A DNA stretch of 38,258 bases, from positions 1 to 38,258 of the forward strand of contig JAUXRW010000016.1 of the NCBI GenBank assembly GCA_030681555.1. The letters run 5' to 3'. Both the position numbers and the translations under genes were made by a program. Origin of the DNA: Acidimicrobiales bacterium (lineage in GTDB: Bacteria > Actinomycetota > Acidimicrobiia > Acidimicrobiales > VFJN01). The notes under the pieces were generated by a model. That model was not told where the DNA came from and made no database searches. It was given only the letters and a program-made list of their open reading frames with translations. This document shows, piece after piece, positions 20,839 to 30,567 of the stretch (the first letter of the stretch is position 1; each line of letters opens with the position of its first letter).

Positions 20839-21498
20839 GTGCCGATCCGGGTCGTGCTGGCAGAGGACAACACCCTGTTGCGCGAGGGCATCGCGCGGCT
20901 CCTCGAGCGCGCCACCGACATCGATCTCGTGGGCGTGGCGGCCGACCGGCCCGAGCTCGAGGCCCTCATCGAGGCGGCCTCGCCCGACCTGGTCGTCACG
21001 GACATCCGGATGCCGCCCAGCGGCACCGACGAGGGCATCCAGATCGCCGCCCAGCTCCGACGCAACCGCCCCGAGGTCGGCGTGGTCGTGCTCAGCCAGT
21101 ACGCCGACCCGGCCTACGCCCTCGCCCTGCTCGACGGCGGTTCGGAGGGCCGCGCCTACCTACTGAAGGAGCGGGTCAGCGAGGTCGAGGAGCTGCTGGC
21201 CGCGATCCGCGAGGTGGCGGCCGGCGGATCCGTGATCGACGCCAAGGTCGTGGAGTCGCTGGTGTCGTCCCGGCGCCCGCACACATCCGACGTCGACCGG
21301 CTCACCCCCCGGGAACGGGAGATCCTCGGGGAGATGGCGCAGGGCAAGAGCAACGCGGCCATCGCCGCTGCGCTGGTGCTGTCCACGCGGGCGGTCGAGA
21401 AGCACACCAACTCCATCTTCTCGAAGCTCGGGCTCTCGGAGGAGATCGACGTGAACCGACGGGTGAAGGCGGTGCTCCTCTACCTCGCCGCCGCGTGA
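20839..21498 (+). CDS. NarL/LuxR-family response regulator
   Basis: VVLAEDNTLLREGI, VVTDIRMPP, YLLKERV, LTPREREILGEMAQGKSNAAIAAALVLSTRAVEKHTNSIFSKLGL. Confidence 0.94.
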   Translation: MPIRVVLAEDNTLLREGIARLLERATDIDLVGVAADRPELEALIEAASPDLVVTDIRMPPSGTDEGIQIAAQLRRNRPEVGVVVLSQYADPAYALALLDGGSEGRAYLLKERVSEVEELLAAIREVAAGGSVIDAKVVESLVSSRRPHTSDVDRLTPREREILGEMAQGKSNAAIAAALVLSTRAVEKHTNSIFSKLGLSEEIDVNRRVKAVLLYLAAA

Positions 21499-21972: not shown

Positions 21973-24411
21973 TCAGCGGACCTGGAGGATGCGGGCCCGG
22001 CCCGCGTGCCCACCGGCCGCCCGGGTTGCCGGCTCACCGACCACGTTGGCCACCGCCACCAGCGCCACCAGGGCCAGCGCGATCAGGCCGAGCGGCACCG
22101 ACGGCGTGGTGGCCGCGCCGAGCTGGCCGGCGAACGCGAGCCAGGTCCAGCGACCCACCGCGATGCCGAGAGGCACGCCGATCACCACGGCGCCGGCGAG
22201 CAGGAGGTTTGTCTGCCAGCGGACGGTGCGGCGCACCTCGCCGCGCCGGAAGCCGAGGGCGGAGAGCACCGCGTAGGTGCGGGCCTGGCGCCGGACGGAA
22301 GCGCTCAGGGTGGTGGCCAGGGCGATCACCGCGGCCAGGGCGAGGAGCCCTGCCAACAGGTGCGCCGTGCCGCGCGCCGGGCTGAGGGCCGCCACCTCGG
22401 CCGGCCGCTGCTCCGTGTAGATCGAACCGGCCATGGCGGGCAGGCCGTACGTCATCTCGGCCGCCACCATCTCGACGACGCTCGGCGCGAACCGACCTGC
22501 GTCTACGCCCTCGGCAAGACGCACCATGGCGGTTCCCCGGAAAGCCGCGTCGTCCAGCTCGGCCAGCGTGTCGTAGGTGACGAGTGCTCCTTGCCCCAGG
22601 CTCGGATGCGAGCTGGCCAGGGGACCGATGGCGGGCAGCGCGACCATCCCCACCACTCGCAGCTCCCCCAGCCGGGTCGTGACCTCGTCGCCCAGCCCGA
22701 CGCCGAGCTCCCCCGCGGTCACGCGGCCGAAGGCGATCTCGTCGCTCGCTCGGGGAAGGCGTCCGTCGACCACCGTAACCGGCGGCGGGCCGCTCACCGG
22801 CTCGATCCCCATCGTGCTCACGCTGCTGCCGTCCACGGTGATGCGCCCGTTGCCCGTCACCATCAGCGCGGCGATCCGTCCGTCGGCCGCTTCGACCACG
22901 GCCGGCCCACCCTCGGTGATGATCTCCTCGTACCCGCCACCGAACTCGACGACGAGATCGGCGGCCCACCCGTACCGGTCCGGCTCCCGGAGGAGCTGAC
23001 GTACGCCTGCTCCGAACGTCAGCGCGCTGATGATGGCCGTGATCGACAGGACGCAGGCCGCCAACGTGGCGCGCGACGGCACCGTTCGACCACCCGCCCC
23101 TGATCCCGCGGCGTGGGCGGCGCCCACGGTGGCGACGGGCCCCAGGCCCATGCCGGCCAGTCCCTGGACGAGGCGGGACCGGGAGGGGCGGGCCCCCGCA
23201 CCGGCCTGCTGCCGGCGGAGCGTGAACCGGCTCATCGCCAGGACGAAGGCGCCCAGGACGAGACCGAGCACGAGCGCGCCGAGCCCCAGCACGGTGACAT
23301 CGATGTCCAGGCCGCGATCGGGCTCGAACGCCCGTACCGGCCCGACGGGACCCACGGGCGACAGCGCGATCGCGAGCGCTACGGCACCCACCGCTCCGAG
23401 CATGACAGCGGCGATGGCCGGTGCCGCCAACCCCATGGCCGCGCGCCCCGGCGCGAACCCGACGGATCGCAGGGTGGGGACGTCGGGCGAGGCAGCAGCG
23501 AGGAGCCGCGCGGCGCCGAGCGCACCGAGGACCAACGCGGCCGCCGCAGCGAAGCCGCCGAAGATCCCGAGGGTCGCCACGATGGGACGGATGCCGCGCT
23601 GCACGCCCTCCAGCTGCTCGTCGTTGCGGCGGACGTTCACGGCCACGTCCTCCGGCAACAGGGCCTGGTAGCCGTCGAGCACGTCCTCGACCCGCGCTCC
23701 CGGAGCGAGGGTGAGGGCCTGCCAGATGTAGCCCCCGGCGACGTCAGCGAGGTCGCGGGTGGCCGCCTCGCTCAGGAGGATCCGGGGCGAGCGGTCGAAG
23801 TCGTCGGCCAGCGCCTCCTCGGCGAACTGGCCGATGCCGACGACGTGCATCGTGGCCTCGCCCACGCGCGGGAAGTCCCGTGGGTCGCCTTCACCGATCT
23901 CGAAGATCCCGAACTCGAGCTCGGATCCCACCTCGAGGCCTCCGAGCTCCGCGCCGATCGTGTTGACGAAGGCCTCGTCGGGAGCATCGGGGTCCGGGAG
24001 CCGACCCTCGACCAGGGTGGCCCGGTCGGTCTCGGTGTAGCGGCCGTCCAGTGAACCGACGACCTCCCCGCCGAGATCCGCGAAGGCCACGCCGTCCTCG
24101 GCGAGCAGGTACATCTTCTCCAGCCCGAAGTGGGTCGCGGCATGGGCCACACCGTCGAGCGACCGGGCCCGCTCGACCACGGGGGCCACGACCTCCGGGC
24201 CCGCGTCTTCGGCGAAGACGACCGGGTTCAGGGCGACGTCGCTCGCGTTGCTCGCCTCGAGGTACCGCGGGAAGGCCGACGCGGTGCGTCGGGCGGCGGC
24301 CATGGACGTGAGCCCGACACCACCCGTGAGGGCGAGCACGAGGGCCAGGCCGAACATCGCCCGCCGGTTCGCCCGCAGCGTGCGGCGCGCGAGGAGCCAG
24401 AGCGCGGCCAT
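21973..24411 (-). CDS. FtsX-like ABC transporter permease
   Basis: 812 aa, N-terminal TM + large extracytoplasmic domains + FtsX C-terminal TM (YAVLSALGFRRGEVRRTVRWQTNLLLAGAVVIGVPLGIAVGRW). Confidence 0.9.
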   Translation of the reverse strand: MAALWLLARRTLRANRRAMFGLALVLALTGGVGLTSMAAARRTASAFPRYLEASNASDVALNPVVFAEDAGPEVVAPVVERARSLDGVAHAATHFGLEKMYLLAEDGVAFADLGGEVVGSLDGRYTETDRATLVEGRLPDPDAPDEAFVNTIGAELGGLEVGSELEFGIFEIGEGDPRDFPRVGEATMHVVGIGQFAEEALADDFDRSPRILLSEAATRDLADVAGGYIWQALTLAPGARVEDVLDGYQALLPEDVAVNVRRNDEQLEGVQRGIRPIVATLGIFGGFAAAAALVLGALGAARLLAAASPDVPTLRSVGFAPGRAAMGLAAPAIAAVMLGAVGAVALAIALSPVGPVGPVRAFEPDRGLDIDVTVLGLGALVLGLVLGAFVLAMSRFTLRRQQAGAGARPSRSRLVQGLAGMGLGPVATVGAAHAAGSGAGGRTVPSRATLAACVLSITAIISALTFGAGVRQLLREPDRYGWAADLVVEFGGGYEEIITEGGPAVVEAADGRIAALMVTGNGRITVDGSSVSTMGIEPVSGPPPVTVVDGRLPRASDEIAFGRVTAGELGVGLGDEVTTRLGELRVVGMVALPAIGPLASSHPSLGQGALVTYDTLAELDDAAFRGTAMVRLAEGVDAGRFAPSVVEMVAAEMTYGLPAMAGSIYTEQRPAEVAALSPARGTAHLLAGLLALAAVIALATTLSASVRRQARTYAVLSALGFRRGEVRRTVRWQTNLLLAGAVVIGVPLGIAVGRWTWLAFAGQLGAATTPSVPLGLIALALVALVAVANVVGEPATRAAGGHAGRARILQVR

Positions 24412-26486
24412 CAGACGGGGACCTGCCCGGCGACGGTGGCGCCCTCACCCGGCGCCGATCGCCACTCCACGCTGCCCCCGATGGCGCCCAGCCGGTCGCT
24501 CATGTTCACGTATCCATGACCGGCGGTGGCCGCGCCCACGTCGAAGCCAGGACCGTCGTCGGCCACCGCGAAGCGCAGCAGGCCGTCGGCCTCCTCGACC
24601 TTGATGTGCACTGTCGCCTCGGGGGCGTGCTTGCCCGCGTTCTGCAGCGCCTCGAGGCAGCAGAAGTACACGGCCGCCTCGACCTCGCTCGGGTGACGGC
24701 CCACCGCGCTGTCGACGCCGACCGCCAGCGGGCTCCGGGTCGCAGCGGCTCGCAGCGCCTCGTTGAGGCCGCTGTCCATGAGCAACGGGGGGTAGATGCC
24801 GTGGGCGAGGTCGCGCAGCTCCTGGATCGTGTCCTTCACGGCATCGCCCAGCGCGTCGAGCATCTCCCGAGCGGACTCCGGATCGTCACCCAGCATGTCC
24901 TTGGCCAGCCGCAGGTTCACCGCCAGCGCGACCAGGTGCTGCTGCGCTCCGTCGTGGAGGTTGCGCTCGATCTTGCGGCGCTCCGCGTCGCCGGTGGCCA
25001 CGATCCGGGCACGGGAGGCCTGCAGGTCGTCGTTGGCCCGCTTGAGGTTCTCGAGGCTCTCCTGCAGGGCGGAGTCGAGCTGCACGTTGTGGAGGGCGAG
25101 GCCGACCTGCCGGGCCAGCTCGGTGAGGACGCGGTCGTCCTCCTCGGTGAACCGGTCGTCGTCGGTGCCCCGCTCGATGACGAGGAGCCCGAGCAGCTCG
25201 CCGCTGTGCGACACCGGGGCGACGCGGAGCTGAGCGCGATCACGCCCCTCGAGCAGCGGCGGGAGCCAGATCTCCAGCCAGACGTTCCCGGTGACCCCCG
25301 CCCGCGTGACCACCGGCTGCTCCTCGGGGCCGAGCACGAGGGGAGGCGCCGTGCGGTCGGGCACCGACACGGTTAGCTCGAGGCGACCCGCGGTGCCCGT
25401 CCAGATCTCCGCCCGCCGGAGCACCAGCACCTTGCGGAGCGACTCGGCCAGCTGCAGCAGCAGCTCGTCCATGGGGATCGATCGGCTGAGGCGACTGCCC
25501 CACGTGCGCAGGACCTCGTCGGGCGGGTGGCGCTCGCCGTAGACCAGCCGGTTGGCGCTCTCGGCCAGGCGCTCGCGCGTGGGCACGTAGGCCACTGCCG
25601 CCACCGCGGCCGCCAGCATGGAGAGCACGAGGAGACGACGCTCGGCGTCGTCGGGCGACCGGCCGAGGCCGATGACGATCACGAGGTAGACGACGACGAC
25701 GACCGCCGTGACCCCGGTGGCCGACACGGTGTGGACCAGCACGCGATCGACGCGGCGGGACATGCGGGCGCTCGTGCCCGCGGCGAGGGCCAGCGGGACG
25801 AGGGCCGTGGCTGCGGCCGCTACTTCGGCGGCGTAGGAGGGCCAGTCGACGAGCAGGTGCAGCGCCGCGACGACGAGGGCCACCTCGACGATGACGGCCA
25901 CCGCGCAGCCGACCAGCTGGAGGCGCTGACGAGCCATGCCCGCAGACCGGAGGTAGGTCTGGTGCGCGGCCGGCAGGCCGATCAGGAGGGCGAGCACGAC
26001 GCCGGCCGCCACTCCGGCCACCGAGGGGGCGCGGTCGGCGATGGCGAGCCACACGCCGATGGCAGCGGCACACACGTACCCGGTGATGGCCAGCGAGCGA
26101 AGGCCGGGTCGGGCCAGGCTCCCGTCCGGCATCACCAGCTCGAGGTGAAGGGCCGCCGCCGGGATGATCGCCGATGCGACGGCGTGGAGAGCGTCGAGGT
26201 CGGCCAACGTCGCCGTCGCCGCGCACGCTCCCCCGGCGACGGCGGCTCCGCCCACGACGAGGCCGAGCCGTTCGCTCCCGCGCCTCGCAAGCACGAGTGC
26301 GGCGCCGGCCCAGAACGCGACGAGCGCGGCCCGCACCCAGTCGCCGGCGACCACCGAGCTGTCGGTGACGCTGGCTGCGGCGAGCCCGAGGGACACCACC
26401 CCGGCGAGCCCGGCGAGGGCACGTGCGGTGCCGGCGACGGGCGGCGCCTCCGGGGCGTGGTCGAGTGTCGTGCGGACGGTGGTCAC
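24411..26486 (-). CDS. NarL-type sensor histidine kinase (multi-TM, GAF, HisKA_3, HATPase_c)
   Basis: ERRKIERNLHDGAQQHLVALAVNLRLAKDML; EALQNAGKHAPEA; VADDGPGFDVGAATAGHGYVNMSDRLGAIGG; stop overlaps permease start (TGATG). Confidence 0.93.
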   Translation of the reverse strand: MTTVRTTLDHAPEAPPVAGTARALAGLAGVVSLGLAAASVTDSSVVAGDWVRAALVAFWAGAALVLARRGSERLGLVVGGAAVAGGACAATATLADLDALHAVASAIIPAAALHLELVMPDGSLARPGLRSLAITGYVCAAAIGVWLAIADRAPSVAGVAAGVVLALLIGLPAAHQTYLRSAGMARQRLQLVGCAVAVIVEVALVVAALHLLVDWPSYAAEVAAAATALVPLALAAGTSARMSRRVDRVLVHTVSATGVTAVVVVVYLVIVIGLGRSPDDAERRLLVLSMLAAAVAAVAYVPTRERLAESANRLVYGERHPPDEVLRTWGSRLSRSIPMDELLLQLAESLRKVLVLRRAEIWTGTAGRLELTVSVPDRTAPPLVLGPEEQPVVTRAGVTGNVWLEIWLPPLLEGRDRAQLRVAPVSHSGELLGLLVIERGTDDDRFTEEDDRVLTELARQVGLALHNVQLDSALQESLENLKRANDDLQASRARIVATGDAERRKIERNLHDGAQQHLVALAVNLRLAKDMLGDDPESAREMLDALGDAVKDTIQELRDLAHGIYPPLLMDSGLNEALRAAATRSPLAVGVDSAVGRHPSEVEAAVYFCCLEALQNAGKHAPEATVHIKVEEADGLLRFAVADDGPGFDVGAATAGHGYVNMSDRLGAIGGSVEWRSAPGEGATVAGQVPV

Positions 26487-26505: not shown

Positions 26506-27246
26506 TCAGGCGAGCGGAGCGGGGCGGTCGCCCGGGGCGACGACCTTGCCGTCCTTCATGCGGGCGACCCGCTGCGCCGCTGCGGCCACGTCGTCGTCGT
26601 GCGTCACCATGAGGATGGTCTGGCCACCCCGGTGGAGCCGGCGGAACAGCTCGATGACCTCCTGGCCGCCCTCCGAGTCGAGCGCGCCAGTGGGCTCGTC
26701 GGCCAGGAGCAGGGTGGGCTCGTTGGCGAGCGCGCGGGCGATGGCGAGGCGTTGCCGCTGCCCGCCCGATAAGGAGCCCGGCGCCGCCTTGGCCTTGTCG
26801 GGGAGGCCGAGCAGGTCGAGCAGGTCGCGTGCGCGGGTCTCGGCGGGGCGCCGCTTCACGCCGGCGACCATGGCGGGGAGGGCGACGTTCTCCAGCACGG
26901 TCATGCCCTCCAGCAGGTTGAAGAACTGGAAGACGATGCCGATGTGACGGCGCCGCATGTGAGCCAACTCGTCCTCCGTCTTGCCGGTGACCTCCTCGCC
27001 CCCGAGGGAGATCGTGCCCTCGTCGGGCTGGTCGAGCCCGGCGACGAGGTTGAGCAGCGTGGACTTGCCGCAGCCTGACGGACCCATGATGGCGACGAAC
27101 TCGCCGGGCCCCATCTGGAAGTCGGTGCCGCGCAATGCTCGGACCGGTGCGTTCTCGGCTTCGAACGTGCGACGGACGCCGCGCACGTCGAGCACGAGGT
27201 CGGACGGCGCGATCAAGGGCTGGGGTGCGGGCTCGGTGGTCGTCAT
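26506..27246 (-). CDS. ABC transporter ATP-binding protein (LolD/MacB-like)
   Basis: Walker A MGPSGCGKST, LSGGQRQRLAIARAL, LLLADEPTGALD; ATGA overlap with upstream gene. Confidence 0.96.
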   Translation of the reverse strand: MTTTEPAPQPLIAPSDLVLDVRGVRRTFEAENAPVRALRGTDFQMGPGEFVAIMGPSGCGKSTLLNLVAGLDQPDEGTISLGGEEVTGKTEDELAHMRRRHIGIVFQFFNLLEGMTVLENVALPAMVAGVKRRPAETRARDLLDLLGLPDKAKAAPGSLSGGQRQRLAIARALANEPTLLLADEPTGALDSEGGQEVIELFRRLHRGGQTILMVTHDDDVAAAAQRVARMKDGKVVAPGDRPAPLA

Positions 27247-28571
27247 GCGGGGCTGCCGATCTCTCGTTCGATGCGATAGGTGGACACGGGCGCGCTGCGC
27301 CCCTTCACGAGCTCGGGTTCGTTGCGGGTGGCCTCCGGTCGGGTGGACAGCCCTTCCCACGTGGCCTCGCTCAGGATCGTCTGCCCGCCCGGGCGAGCCA
27401 TCTCCTGCAAGCGCTGCGCCAGGTTCACCGTGTCGCCCACCAGCGTGTACTCCAGCCGCTCTTCCGATCCGAGCAGTGCGGCCGCCGCCTTGCCGGTGGA
27501 CAGCCCGATGCCCAGGAGGAACTCCTCGCGACCCGTACCCTCCCACGCCCGGTTGAGCTCGTGCTGCGAGCGGTGCATGGCCAAAGCCGCCTCCAGCGCG
27601 CGGTCGGCGTGGTCGGGCTGGGGGAAGGGTGCCCCGAAGACCGCCATGACGGCGTCGCCGATGAACTGCATCACCGTGCCGCTGGCGCCGATGATGGCCC
27701 GGTTCATCGCGGCTCGGTGCTCGTTCAGCTGCGCGGCGAGCTGGGTCGGGGTGATGCGCTCAGCGATCGAGGAGTAGCCGCGGATGTCGGACATCAGCAC
27801 CGTGACCTCGAGCTCCTCGCTCTCGCCGATGTGGCGCCCGTCCTGGCGCAGCTTCTCTGCCAGCCCTCCTGGCAGGAGACGGGAGAGCGTCTCACCCTGC
27901 TCCTCCCGGTCGACTATCGCCTGGTGGAGCAGGCGCAAACGCCGCAGCGCGCTGTCGGCGCCGACGGACGCGCCCTTGGCCAGGTCGAGGAAGAGGTGCT
28001 CGACGGCGTCGGAGACGGCCTCCGGCGTCGTCCTCCGGGTCACGGCGATGGCCTTGATCGGCCGGCCCTCGGCGATCCAGGTGAGCAGCTCCTGGTCGTC
28101 TGCCGTCAGGTCGTCGTCCCCCGCCTGCACGGGCCGGACCAGCGCGTCGACGATCGCAGGGTCCAGCAACGTGCCGCCGGCGGCCACGGCCCGGATGGCG
28201 TCGACGAGCTGATCGCCCTCCGCGAGGCGATCCTTCAGCAGGTAGGCGTAGCCCGCGGCACCGTCGGCCAGCAGCGACACGGCGTACTCCGGGTCGTCGT
28301 ACTGCGACAGGATCACGACGCCGGTGCCGGGGTTGCGCTTCCGGATCTCCTTGGCCGCATCGATGCCCTCCCGGTTGAACGTGGGCGGCATGCGGATGTC
28401 GCTGACCACGACCTGCGGCTCGTGGGCGAACGCCGCCGCGATGAGCTCAGGGTGGTCCGAGGCCTCGGCGACGATCTCCAGATCGGCCTCGCGGGCGAGC
28501 AGGCCGCGCACACCCATACGGACGATCAGGTTGTCGTCCGCCAGCACCACGGTGATCACGCCCTCTGGCAT
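27243..28571 (-). CDS. Receiver - LuxR-like (degenerate) - class III nucleotide cyclase fusion
   Basis: VVLADDNLIVRMGVRGLL, VVVSDIRMPP, YLLKDRL; LTADDQELLTWIAEGRPIKAIAV...; VLMSDIRGYSSIAERI, GTVMQFIGDAVMAVFGAP, YTLVGDTVNLAQRL. Confidence 0.93.
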   Translation of the reverse strand: MPEGVITVVLADDNLIVRMGVRGLLAREADLEIVAEASDHPELIAAAFAHEPQVVVSDIRMPPTFNREGIDAAKEIRKRNPGTGVVILSQYDDPEYAVSLLADGAAGYAYLLKDRLAEGDQLVDAIRAVAAGGTLLDPAIVDALVRPVQAGDDDLTADDQELLTWIAEGRPIKAIAVTRRTTPEAVSDAVEHLFLDLAKGASVGADSALRRLRLLHQAIVDREEQGETLSRLLPGGLAEKLRQDGRHIGESEELEVTVLMSDIRGYSSIAERITPTQLAAQLNEHRAAMNRAIIGASGTVMQFIGDAVMAVFGAPFPQPDHADRALEAALAMHRSQHELNRAWEGTGREEFLLGIGLSTGKAAAALLGSEERLEYTLVGDTVNLAQRLQEMARPGGQTILSEATWEGLSTRPEATRNEPELVKGRSAPVSTYRIEREIGSPA

Positions 28572-28595
28572 GACACCATCAGGCCACGTTCCGGG

Positions 28596-28610
28596 CCCCT
28601 TGACCAGGGG
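28596..28610. promoter_or_regulatory. Inverted repeat CCCCT-TGACC-AGGGG in divergent intergenic region
   Basis: Perfect 5-bp arms, 5-nt spacer, 25 bp upstream of the cyclase ATG (28571). Confidence 0.3.
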
Positions 28611-28720
28611 GCAGCCATGCGACGCCGGGTGGTGCCAGCCCCACCCCCGGGATGCCGGACCGCACCCTCGCCACCACCGTCCTCGCGGGCAAATGTGGAG
28701 CAGCCGGCAGAGGAGGATCG

Positions 28721-29722
28721 ATGAAGCTCGAGGCATGCGTCGTAGCGGTGTCATGGATCCCGTCCGAGGCCGTGAAGGGCGCGATGAGGGCGCCGTTCGA
28801 GCTCGGCATCGCGCACTACGACGAGCCGCTGCCCGACGTCCTCGGCGACCTCGACGACTGGAAGGCGAGGGACCTGTTCCGGGTGGCCAACGTCCTCCGG
28901 GCCTGGATCGAGGTCGACGAGAGCGGGGCCATCGTCGGGCACGGCTACCTCGGCGGCGGCGTGATCGGCGCGACGACCATGGGCCTCGGCTCGGCGACGG
29001 CGACCTTCCGAGCCGTGCCCTACCCGGACCTTCAGGCCGAGCCCGACGTCGGTGACGGGTGGGTGCGGTTCACCCAGACCGCCGGGGGGCGGACCGGGGT
29101 CCCGGCCCCCCGCCGCGTCGCCAAGCCGCCCTTCGTGCAGTACCACGCCCCCACGGCCTGGTCGACGCTGGCGCTGACCATCAAGGCCGACGGCACGCAC
29201 GACTGGGACCTCGTCGGCGCCAGTCCCTTCCCCCGACACTGGATCTACGGCCCCGACGGCAAGCTGGCCGCCAAGTCCGGCCTGGTCGACTTCAAAGACT
29301 GGTACCACCACGCCTTCGGGGAGTCCAGCCCCTGGGGCGGCGAGGAGAGCCCTGCGCTCGTCACGGCCGTGGAGTCGGCCATGGAGCGCCAGCTCTCCCG
29401 GGTGATCATGGGAGAGGGCAAGCCGAAGATCCGCAAGCTCAAGGCGGGCGCCGCCCTCACCCAACAGGGGGAGGAGGCGGATGCGATCTACCTCCTGCTC
29501 GACGGCGTCATCCAGGTGCAGGTGGACGGCGAGGAGATCGCCGCCCTCGGGCCTGGCGCGCTGATCGGCGAGCGGGCCGTGCTGGAGGGTGGGCGGCGGA
29601 CGGCCACCCTCGTCGCGGTCAGCCCGTGCAAGGTCGCCGAGGCCCGGAAGGTCGAGCTCGACCTCGCCGCGCTGGCGGAGGTGAGCGCCGGGCACCGCCG
29701 GGAGGAACAGGACCTCCCGTGA
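28721..29722 (+). CDS. Protein with C-terminal cyclic nucleotide-binding domain and N-terminal domain of unknown function
   Basis: GAALTQQGEEADAIYLLLDGVIQVQVDGEEIAALGPGALIGERAVLEGGRRTATLVAV (CNB phosphate-binding cassette); RBS GAGGAGG. Confidence 0.88.
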   Translation: MKLEACVVAVSWIPSEAVKGAMRAPFELGIAHYDEPLPDVLGDLDDWKARDLFRVANVLRAWIEVDESGAIVGHGYLGGGVIGATTMGLGSATATFRAVPYPDLQAEPDVGDGWVRFTQTAGGRTGVPAPRRVAKPPFVQYHAPTAWSTLALTIKADGTHDWDLVGASPFPRHWIYGPDGKLAAKSGLVDFKDWYHHAFGESSPWGGEESPALVTAVESAMERQLSRVIMGEGKPKIRKLKAGAALTQQGEEADAIYLLLDGVIQVQVDGEEIAALGPGALIGERAVLEGGRRTATLVAVSPCKVAEARKVELDLAALAEVSAGHRREEQDLP

Positions 29723-30567
29723 GGTTGCACGTGCTCGGCGTGCGGGGCTCGACCCCGTCGCCGGGTCGAGACTTCGCCCGCTACGGCGGCAACACCTCGT
29801 GCGTGGCGATCGGGCGCGACGGTGCCGCGCCCAGCCTGCTCCTCGATGCCGGCACCGGTCTCCGCGGGCTCGGCGCCCTGCTGGGCGACCAGCCGTTCCA
29901 CGGAGCGCTGCTGCTCGGGCACCTGCACTGGGACCACACCCAGGGGCTCCCGTTCTCGCCCGCGCTGGACCACGACGCCGCGGAGGTGCGCCTGTGCCTT
30001 CCGGACCAGGAGGACGGCGACGCCGCGGTCGACGTGCTGCGCCGCGCGATGTCGCCGCCGCACTTCCCGATCGGGCCGGAGGGGCTGCGCGGTCGATGGA
30101 CGTTCGAGGGACTCGAGCCGGGCTACCACCACGTCGCCGGGTTCGAGGTGCTGGCGCTCGAGATCCCCCACAAGGGCGGCCGGACCTACGGCTACCGGAT
30201 CAGCGACGACACGAGCGCCGTGGCCTACCTCTCCGACCACGGTCCCGGCGCCCTCGGGCCAGGACCCGAGGGCTGGGGTCCGTACCACGACAACGCCATG
30301 GCGCTCGCAGCCGGCGTCGACCTGCTGGTGCACGATGCGCAGCACACCGCGGACGAGCTGCCCACGCGCCTCGCCTGGGGCCACTCCGCGGCGGACTACC
30401 CCGTCGAGCTCGCTCGCCGAGCCGAGGCGAAGGCGGTGCTGCTGTACCACCACGACCCCACGCGCACCGATGACGAGGTCGACGCGCTCGTGGCCTCGTT
30501 CGCCGGCGCGCCGCTGCCGGTGACGGCCGCGGCCGAAGGCGCGACCATCCAGCTGGGATTGTCTTAG
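29719..30567 (+). CDS. MBL-fold metallo-hydrolase, PhnP/RNase Z-like phosphodiesterase-type
   Basis: VRGSTPSPGRDFARYGGNTSCVAI, LLLDAGTGLRGLG, GHLHWDHTQGLPF, LSDHGPG; GTG start overlaps upstream TGA (GTGA). Confidence 0.9.
   Translation: MRLHVLGVRGSTPSPGRDFARYGGNTSCVAIGRDGAAPSLLLDAGTGLRGLGALLGDQPFHGALLLGHLHWDHTQGLPFSPALDHDAAEVRLCLPDQEDGDAAVDVLRRAMSPPHFPIGPEGLRGRWTFEGLEPGYHHVAGFEVLALEIPHKGGRTYGYRISDDTSAVAYLSDHGPGALGPGPEGWGPYHDNAMALAAGVDLLVHDAQHTADELPTRLAWGHSAADYPVELARRAEAKAVLLYHHDPTRTDDEVDALVASFAGAPLPVTAAAEGATIQLGLS

Follow-up and report, generated by a model that had tools for sequence, protein, structure and literature searches.

A stretch of 38,258 nucleotides from an Acidimicrobiales bacterium (contig JAUXRW010000016.1 of assembly GCA_030681555.1, positions 1 to 38,258, here called the window) encodes a class III nucleotide cyclase fused to a receiver domain, a protein ending in a cyclic nucleotide-binding (CNB) domain and a metallo-beta-lactamase (MBL)-fold hydrolase, and raises the question of whether these genes form one signaling pathway. 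An earlier note on the sequence had proposed that they do, as a three-gene module that writes, reads and erases a cyclic mononucleotide. The three genes, their coordinates and their domains were confirmed by the sequence and by Pfam, and the 149-bp intergenic gap and the GTGA overlap of the CNB and MBL genes are both present, but the locus is larger than proposed and also holds a histidine kinase, an exporter, a paralogous regulator and a distinct N-terminal domain (NTD) of the CNB protein. It is a conserved two-component, cyclase and CNB-receptor locus with an accessory MBL enzyme, in which the arrangement and the receptor are new and the other parts are known; no description of the arrangement was found in the open-licence literature, most subscription papers lying outside the scope of that search. 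A two-component sensor is joined here to a cyclase, and the receptor that probably reads the cyclase product has a domain that none of the searched databases contains.

Conservation of the neighborhood was followed through a pattern-based scan of the genome collection, which returned 272 relatives of the NTD-CNB protein, and the best 80 loci of these 272 were compared across Actinomycetota, Dormibacterota, and Chloroflexota (17 loci from the latter two phyla). An ortholog of the receiver-cyclase is found at 53 of the 80 loci and the MBL gene at 41, together with a relative of the LuxR-type regulator (57-76% identical) at 38, an ortholog of the ABC ATPase (at least 60% identity) at 30, and a close homolog of the kinase (at least 50% identity) at 29. 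The cyclase and CNB genes are directly divergent at 30 of the 60 loci with sufficient flank. Among 60 genomes around the window's order (the window genome being one of the 60), eight, from eight different families, hold a full-length relative of the CNB protein, with the MBL gene directly downstream in five and the cyclase directly divergent in three. The neighborhood check suggested in the earlier note was therefore positive, the arrangement being kept in many genera and three phyla. Co-occurrence was likewise found in a sample of 296 Actinomycetota genomes, with the window genome left out, where NTD-CNB is present in 25 genomes and the receiver-cyclase and the MBL gene in 16 each. Either gene is accompanied by NTD-CNB in 14 of its 16 genomes (Fisher p ~1.5e-15 in both cases, uncorrected for ancestry), and the cyclase and MBL genes occur together in 11. 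Orthologs were taken as receiver-cyclases above 600 bits (others below 470), plus one copy cut by a contig end, and as MBL proteins above 340 bits (others below 282), cut-offs that were chosen after the gaps were visible, and the 80-locus set and the genome samples partly derive from the same public genomes. The protein distance matrices also correlate (r 0.75, 0.67, and 0.73), an effect that a common species history gives as well. Despite shared ancestry, the linkage of the genes is not in doubt.

The strongest argument that the CNB protein reads the product of the cyclase is that a cyclase is kept at the locus though its type changes. Six further loci of the 80 have a class III cyclase of another kind, which at three of the six is likewise placed divergently. 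For example, the divergent neighbor at L057, L096, and L103 is a protein of ~900 residues combining cyclase, AAA/NB-ARC, and TPR domains, a cyclase-AAA-TPR protein lies upstream of NTD-CNB at L050 and L117, and a class III cyclase is matched at L107 by profile only. A narrower cyclase profile missed the STAND-type cyclases, which a broader one detected. A class III cyclase lies within ~8 kb at 59 of 67 informative loci, whereas only ~10% of loci would be expected to have one nearby by chance, as estimated from the 21 class III cyclase domains encoded in the 3.28 Mb of the window genome. The proposal of a phosphorelay-controlled cyclase with a CNB receptor outside the Crp family is strongly favored on genomic grounds by the conserved linkage, by the co-occurrence, and by the class III cyclases that stand beside the receptor without being orthologs of the receiver-cyclase, the part of the proposal that concerns erasure being weaker.

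The CNB protein is a member of a family, NTD-CNB, in which an unclassified N-terminal domain of ~230 residues is fused to a CNB domain. Its phosphate-binding cassette is that expected of a ligand-binding CNB domain, with G283 and R293 present in 63 of 63 sequences and E284 and T294 in 62 of 63, and a Foldseek search of the PDB with the NTD-CNB model matched the CNB domains of CRP, PKA, PKG, and PycTIR. Of the bacterial cyclic-mononucleotide pathways that are understood in detail, most lead to a CRP-type transcription factor, and in the cAMP-CRP and cGMP-CgrA pairs a cyclase, of class III or another type, and a CNB protein act together and are sometimes encoded together; the CgrA gene cluster is reportedly such a cyclase-receptor pair for cGMP. 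In contrast to the CRP/FNR and CgrA types of receptor, NTD-CNB has no helix-turn-helix (HTH) C-terminal to the CNB domain, which ends near residue 312 of 333, is the sole Pfam domain (PF00027), and stands at the C-terminus of the unclassified domain. For residues 1-230, searches of Pfam, NCBIfam, PHROG, and PDB sequences returned nothing convincing, and a Pfam RHS_repeat hit (best 0.0039, in 4 of 26 sequences) was rejected as an apparent chance match to a YD hairpin. The whole protein was modeled by AlphaFold with a predicted local distance difference test score (pLDDT) of 87 and a beta-rich NTD, and among the Foldseek matches listed for this model those from the PDB were CNB proteins and the viral ones were weak and partly cupins, so that the fold of the NTD went unmatched. 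The NTD was seen only within this family, in the same 26 of 297 genomes as the full protein, and its conservation by majority residue matches that of the CNB domain (70% vs 69%). Its invariant polar residues (D34, R54, R131, S168, R172, and H173) suggest a ligand or catalytic site. The family spans three phyla, its carriers include cultured strains such as Pseudonocardia endophytica DSM 44969 (L114) and Knoellia flava (L096, with a STAND-type cyclase), and the nucleotide and the output are both open to direct test. In addition, a second, partial NTD-CNB copy occurs at one locus (L071:13666-14520, +), with more CNB-domain open reading frames (ORFs) nearby, two Actinomycetota genomes (G072 and G087) have three copies each without a high-scoring receiver-cyclase, and an MFS transporter-CNB fusion (L091:6660-8327, -) is divergent from an NTD-CNB gene.

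The receiver-cyclase (Response_reg 3.6e-16 and Guanylate_cyc 5.1e-22 in Pfam) is the head of a four-gene operon of cyclase, ABC ATPase, histidine kinase, and FtsX-type permease, because its stop codon overlaps the start of the ABC ATPase gene (ATGA). Its receiver is of the NarL type by its matches and by D14, the phospho-acceptor D59, and K114, which are invariant in the 48 orthologs, and it is followed by a degenerate NarL/LuxR HTH. The NarL/LuxR response regulators DesR, VraR, and DevR align with the receiver and HTH-like region over ~195 aa, but the receiver-cyclase has a degenerate form of the HTH and continues into a cyclase domain; the alignment with the LuxR-type regulator of the window (Table 1) also spans this degenerate region. 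The catalytic fold, two metal-binding Asp residues, Asn, and Arg are common to the class IIIb adenylate cyclases CyaB and CyaC, the guanylate cyclase Cya2, and the receiver-cyclase, in which D263, D307, N384, and R388 are invariant (48/48). The purine-binding Lys of adenylate cyclases is Gln (Q303) in 48/48 receiver-cyclases, whereas the aligned column holds Lys in CyaB and CyaC and Glu in Cya2, and the second specificity position, 377, is Thr in 33 and Ser in 15, Thr being found there in CyaB and CyaC as well. As judged from the alignment, these residues fit neither the adenylate cyclase pattern nor that of the guanylate cyclase Cya2. The window also contains a second class III cyclase (58-1626, +), which has the usual Lys (NKFEGDGALAVFG) and is not an ortholog of the receiver-cyclase.

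The MBL enzyme is an accessory part of the locus. Its start lies at most ~20 bases from the end of the CNB match in most coupled loci, which implies joint expression of both genes. Its expected metal ligands (H68, H70, D72, H73, H151, D173, H222, and H244) are invariant in 38/38 sequences, and of the atypical class-II motif [T/S]HXHXDH the HLHWDH part (H68-H73) is kept, with Thr or Ser preceding it in 21 of the 38 (G 17, T 13, S 8) and Gly in the window protein (GHLHWDH). In a PDB ranking by Foldseek, its AlphaFold model (pLDDT 91.5) came closest to YhfI, followed by RNase Z and PhnP at nearly equal scores, with Apyc1 lower. Rv1339, YhfI, and CpdA of C. glutamicum are atypical class-II phosphodiesterases (PMC9293780), and these proteins and Apyc1 (PMC9117128) have in common with the locus enzyme the PF12706 MBL fold and HxHxDH, from which it differs as a separate subfamily in which the residue before HxHxDH varies and the score to NF041851 is low (29.1 bits against a cut-off of 400, under which all control genomes also fell). 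On balance, hydrolysis of a cyclic mononucleotide by the enzyme is somewhat more probable than not. Two more MBL paralogs in the window genome (G000:C127:24288-25112 and C147:45569-46405) fit both the RNase Z and the phosphodiesterase models better than the locus enzyme does.

As a whole, the locus is explained, with moderate confidence, as a cyclic-mononucleotide pathway under two-component control. In it, the operon's histidine kinase would phosphorylate two related receivers, those of the LuxR-type regulator and of the receiver-cyclase, and the activated receiver-cyclase would produce a 3',5'-cyclic mononucleotide. NTD-CNB, encoded divergently, would bind this nucleotide through its CNB domain, and the binding would switch the NTD, the putative output, and in many Actinomycetota the coupled MBL-fold enzyme would act as the phosphodiesterase that clears the nucleotide. 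Several observations weigh against this account. The kinase is paired with the receivers by gene order alone, all 48 cyclases have Gln in place of the purine-selecting Lys, which could mean a different activity or substrate, 8 of the 67 well-flanked loci have no class III cyclase nearby, and the MBL gene is found at 0/17 Dormibacterota and Chloroflexota loci; moreover, the p-values near 1e-15 are overstated because the genomes share ancestry and are not independent. A further-reaching idea, that an unclassified domain, possibly an enzyme, is gated by the CNB domain as a new receptor class, with class III cyclases that can replace one another as its drivers, with a nucleotide other than cAMP or a relaxed specificity as the invariant Gln might indicate, is advanced tentatively and is rather doubtful.

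The clearing step is where a different division of labor has to be considered, in which the cyclase and NTD-CNB would constitute the pathway and the MBL enzyme would act elsewhere, for instance on an RNA end, a 2',3'-cyclic nucleotide, or something that the NTD produces. This appears unlikely, though it finds support in the Dormibacterota and Chloroflexota loci that keep cyclase and CNB protein without the MBL gene, in the NF041851 score far under its cut-off, and in Foldseek scores that hardly separate YhfI, RNase Z, and PhnP. It is opposed by the tight coupling of the MBL gene to the CNB gene and their co-occurrence in 14/16 genomes. The RNase Z cut-off (TIGR02651) is also far from reached, at 28.8 bits against 292.95, and the locus enzyme has HDAQ in place of the HEAT of RNase Z. 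The closest fold, YhfI, is a cAMP/cGMP phosphodiesterase that reportedly favors these two nucleotides (PMC9117128). The erasure proposed in the earlier note agrees with the pairing of MBL and CNB genes that many Actinomycetota show, but is weakened by the distribution among phyla, the low phosphodiesterase-family score, and the near equality of RNase Z and YhfI.

A Pycsar-type anti-phage system, in which the cyclase would make a cyclic pyrimidine and the NTD would be an effector that kills the cell or halts its growth once the CNB domain releases it, is improbable. In Pycsar, too, a class III-like cyclase adjoins a CNB protein (PMC11224242). The CNB domain of NTD-CNB resembles that of PycTIR, the PADLOC models for PycC and PycTIR match the cyclase and CNB domains, STAND-type cyclases are swapped in at some loci, and at one locus a TIR-WD40 protein (L063:6822-9608, +) lies directly upstream of an NTD-CNB gene without a cyclase nearby. 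However, the PADLOC matches are limited to the shared domains, and neither Pfam nor PADLOC found a TIR or membrane domain of the Pycsar effector kind in NTD-CNB. EaPycC carries a CTP-selecting Arg (PMC11224242), which by our own placement, counted from the metal-binding Asp, falls at the Lys position that is Gln here. The locus further differs in its receiver-controlled cyclase, its ties to a kinase, a regulator, and an exporter, and its extra MBL enzyme, and viral contigs and plasmids hold no relatives, by which a phage or plasmid origin was also rejected. It is more improbable still that the genes are neighbors without a shared nucleotide, maintained side by side through co-regulation in an envelope-stress operon, with the CNB protein sensing the general cAMP pool or nothing. 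The exporter, the FtsX permease, and the LiaS/NarX-like kinase do suggest such an operon, but the linkage crosses phyla and persists through changes of order and strand, and unrelated class III cyclases substitute for the receiver-cyclase.

Table 1. Features of the locus, in window coordinates.
Feature	Position	Strand	Details
Receiver, degenerate LuxR-type HTH and class III cyclase fusion	27243..28571	-	442 aa; ATG 28571, stop 27243; operon gene 1
NTD of the CNB protein, residues 1-230	28721..29410	+	Unclassified, beta-rich
C-terminal CNB domain and HRREE tail	29411..29722	+	Pfam PF00027 1.9e-16, residues 238-312
MBL-fold metallohydrolase	29719..30567	+	Lactamase_B_2 3.5e-13; GTGA overlap with CNB gene
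MacB/LolD-type ABC exporter ATPase	26506..27246	-	ABC_tran 4.1e-38; ATGA overlap with cyclase stop
GAF-HisKA_3-HATPase sensor histidine kinase (NarX/LiaS type)	24411..26486	-	HisKA_3 7.6e-16, GAF, HATPase_c
FtsX/MacB-like ABC permease, final operon gene	21973..24411	-	FtsX 1e-09
Response regulator of the NarL/LuxR type, paralogous to the receiver of the cyclase	20839..21498	+	45% identity over 195 aa
Divergent intergenic region, 149 bp	28572..28720	.	Sequence

The start of the CNB gene (Table 1) is backed by two features, a strong Shine-Dalgarno-like AGGAGG and a matching start in the aligned orthologs. No sigma-70-like promoter was found in the divergent region and no terminator was found, a search that is uninformative here, and the sequence yielded no known RNA elements or tRNAs. 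Beside the MBL gene, an FAD-dependent phytoene-desaturase-like oxidoreductase is encoded at three loci (L063:11859-13286, L105:11804-13240, and L044:3998-5407), and the ORF cluster of this oxidoreductase type spans 23 of the 80 loci.

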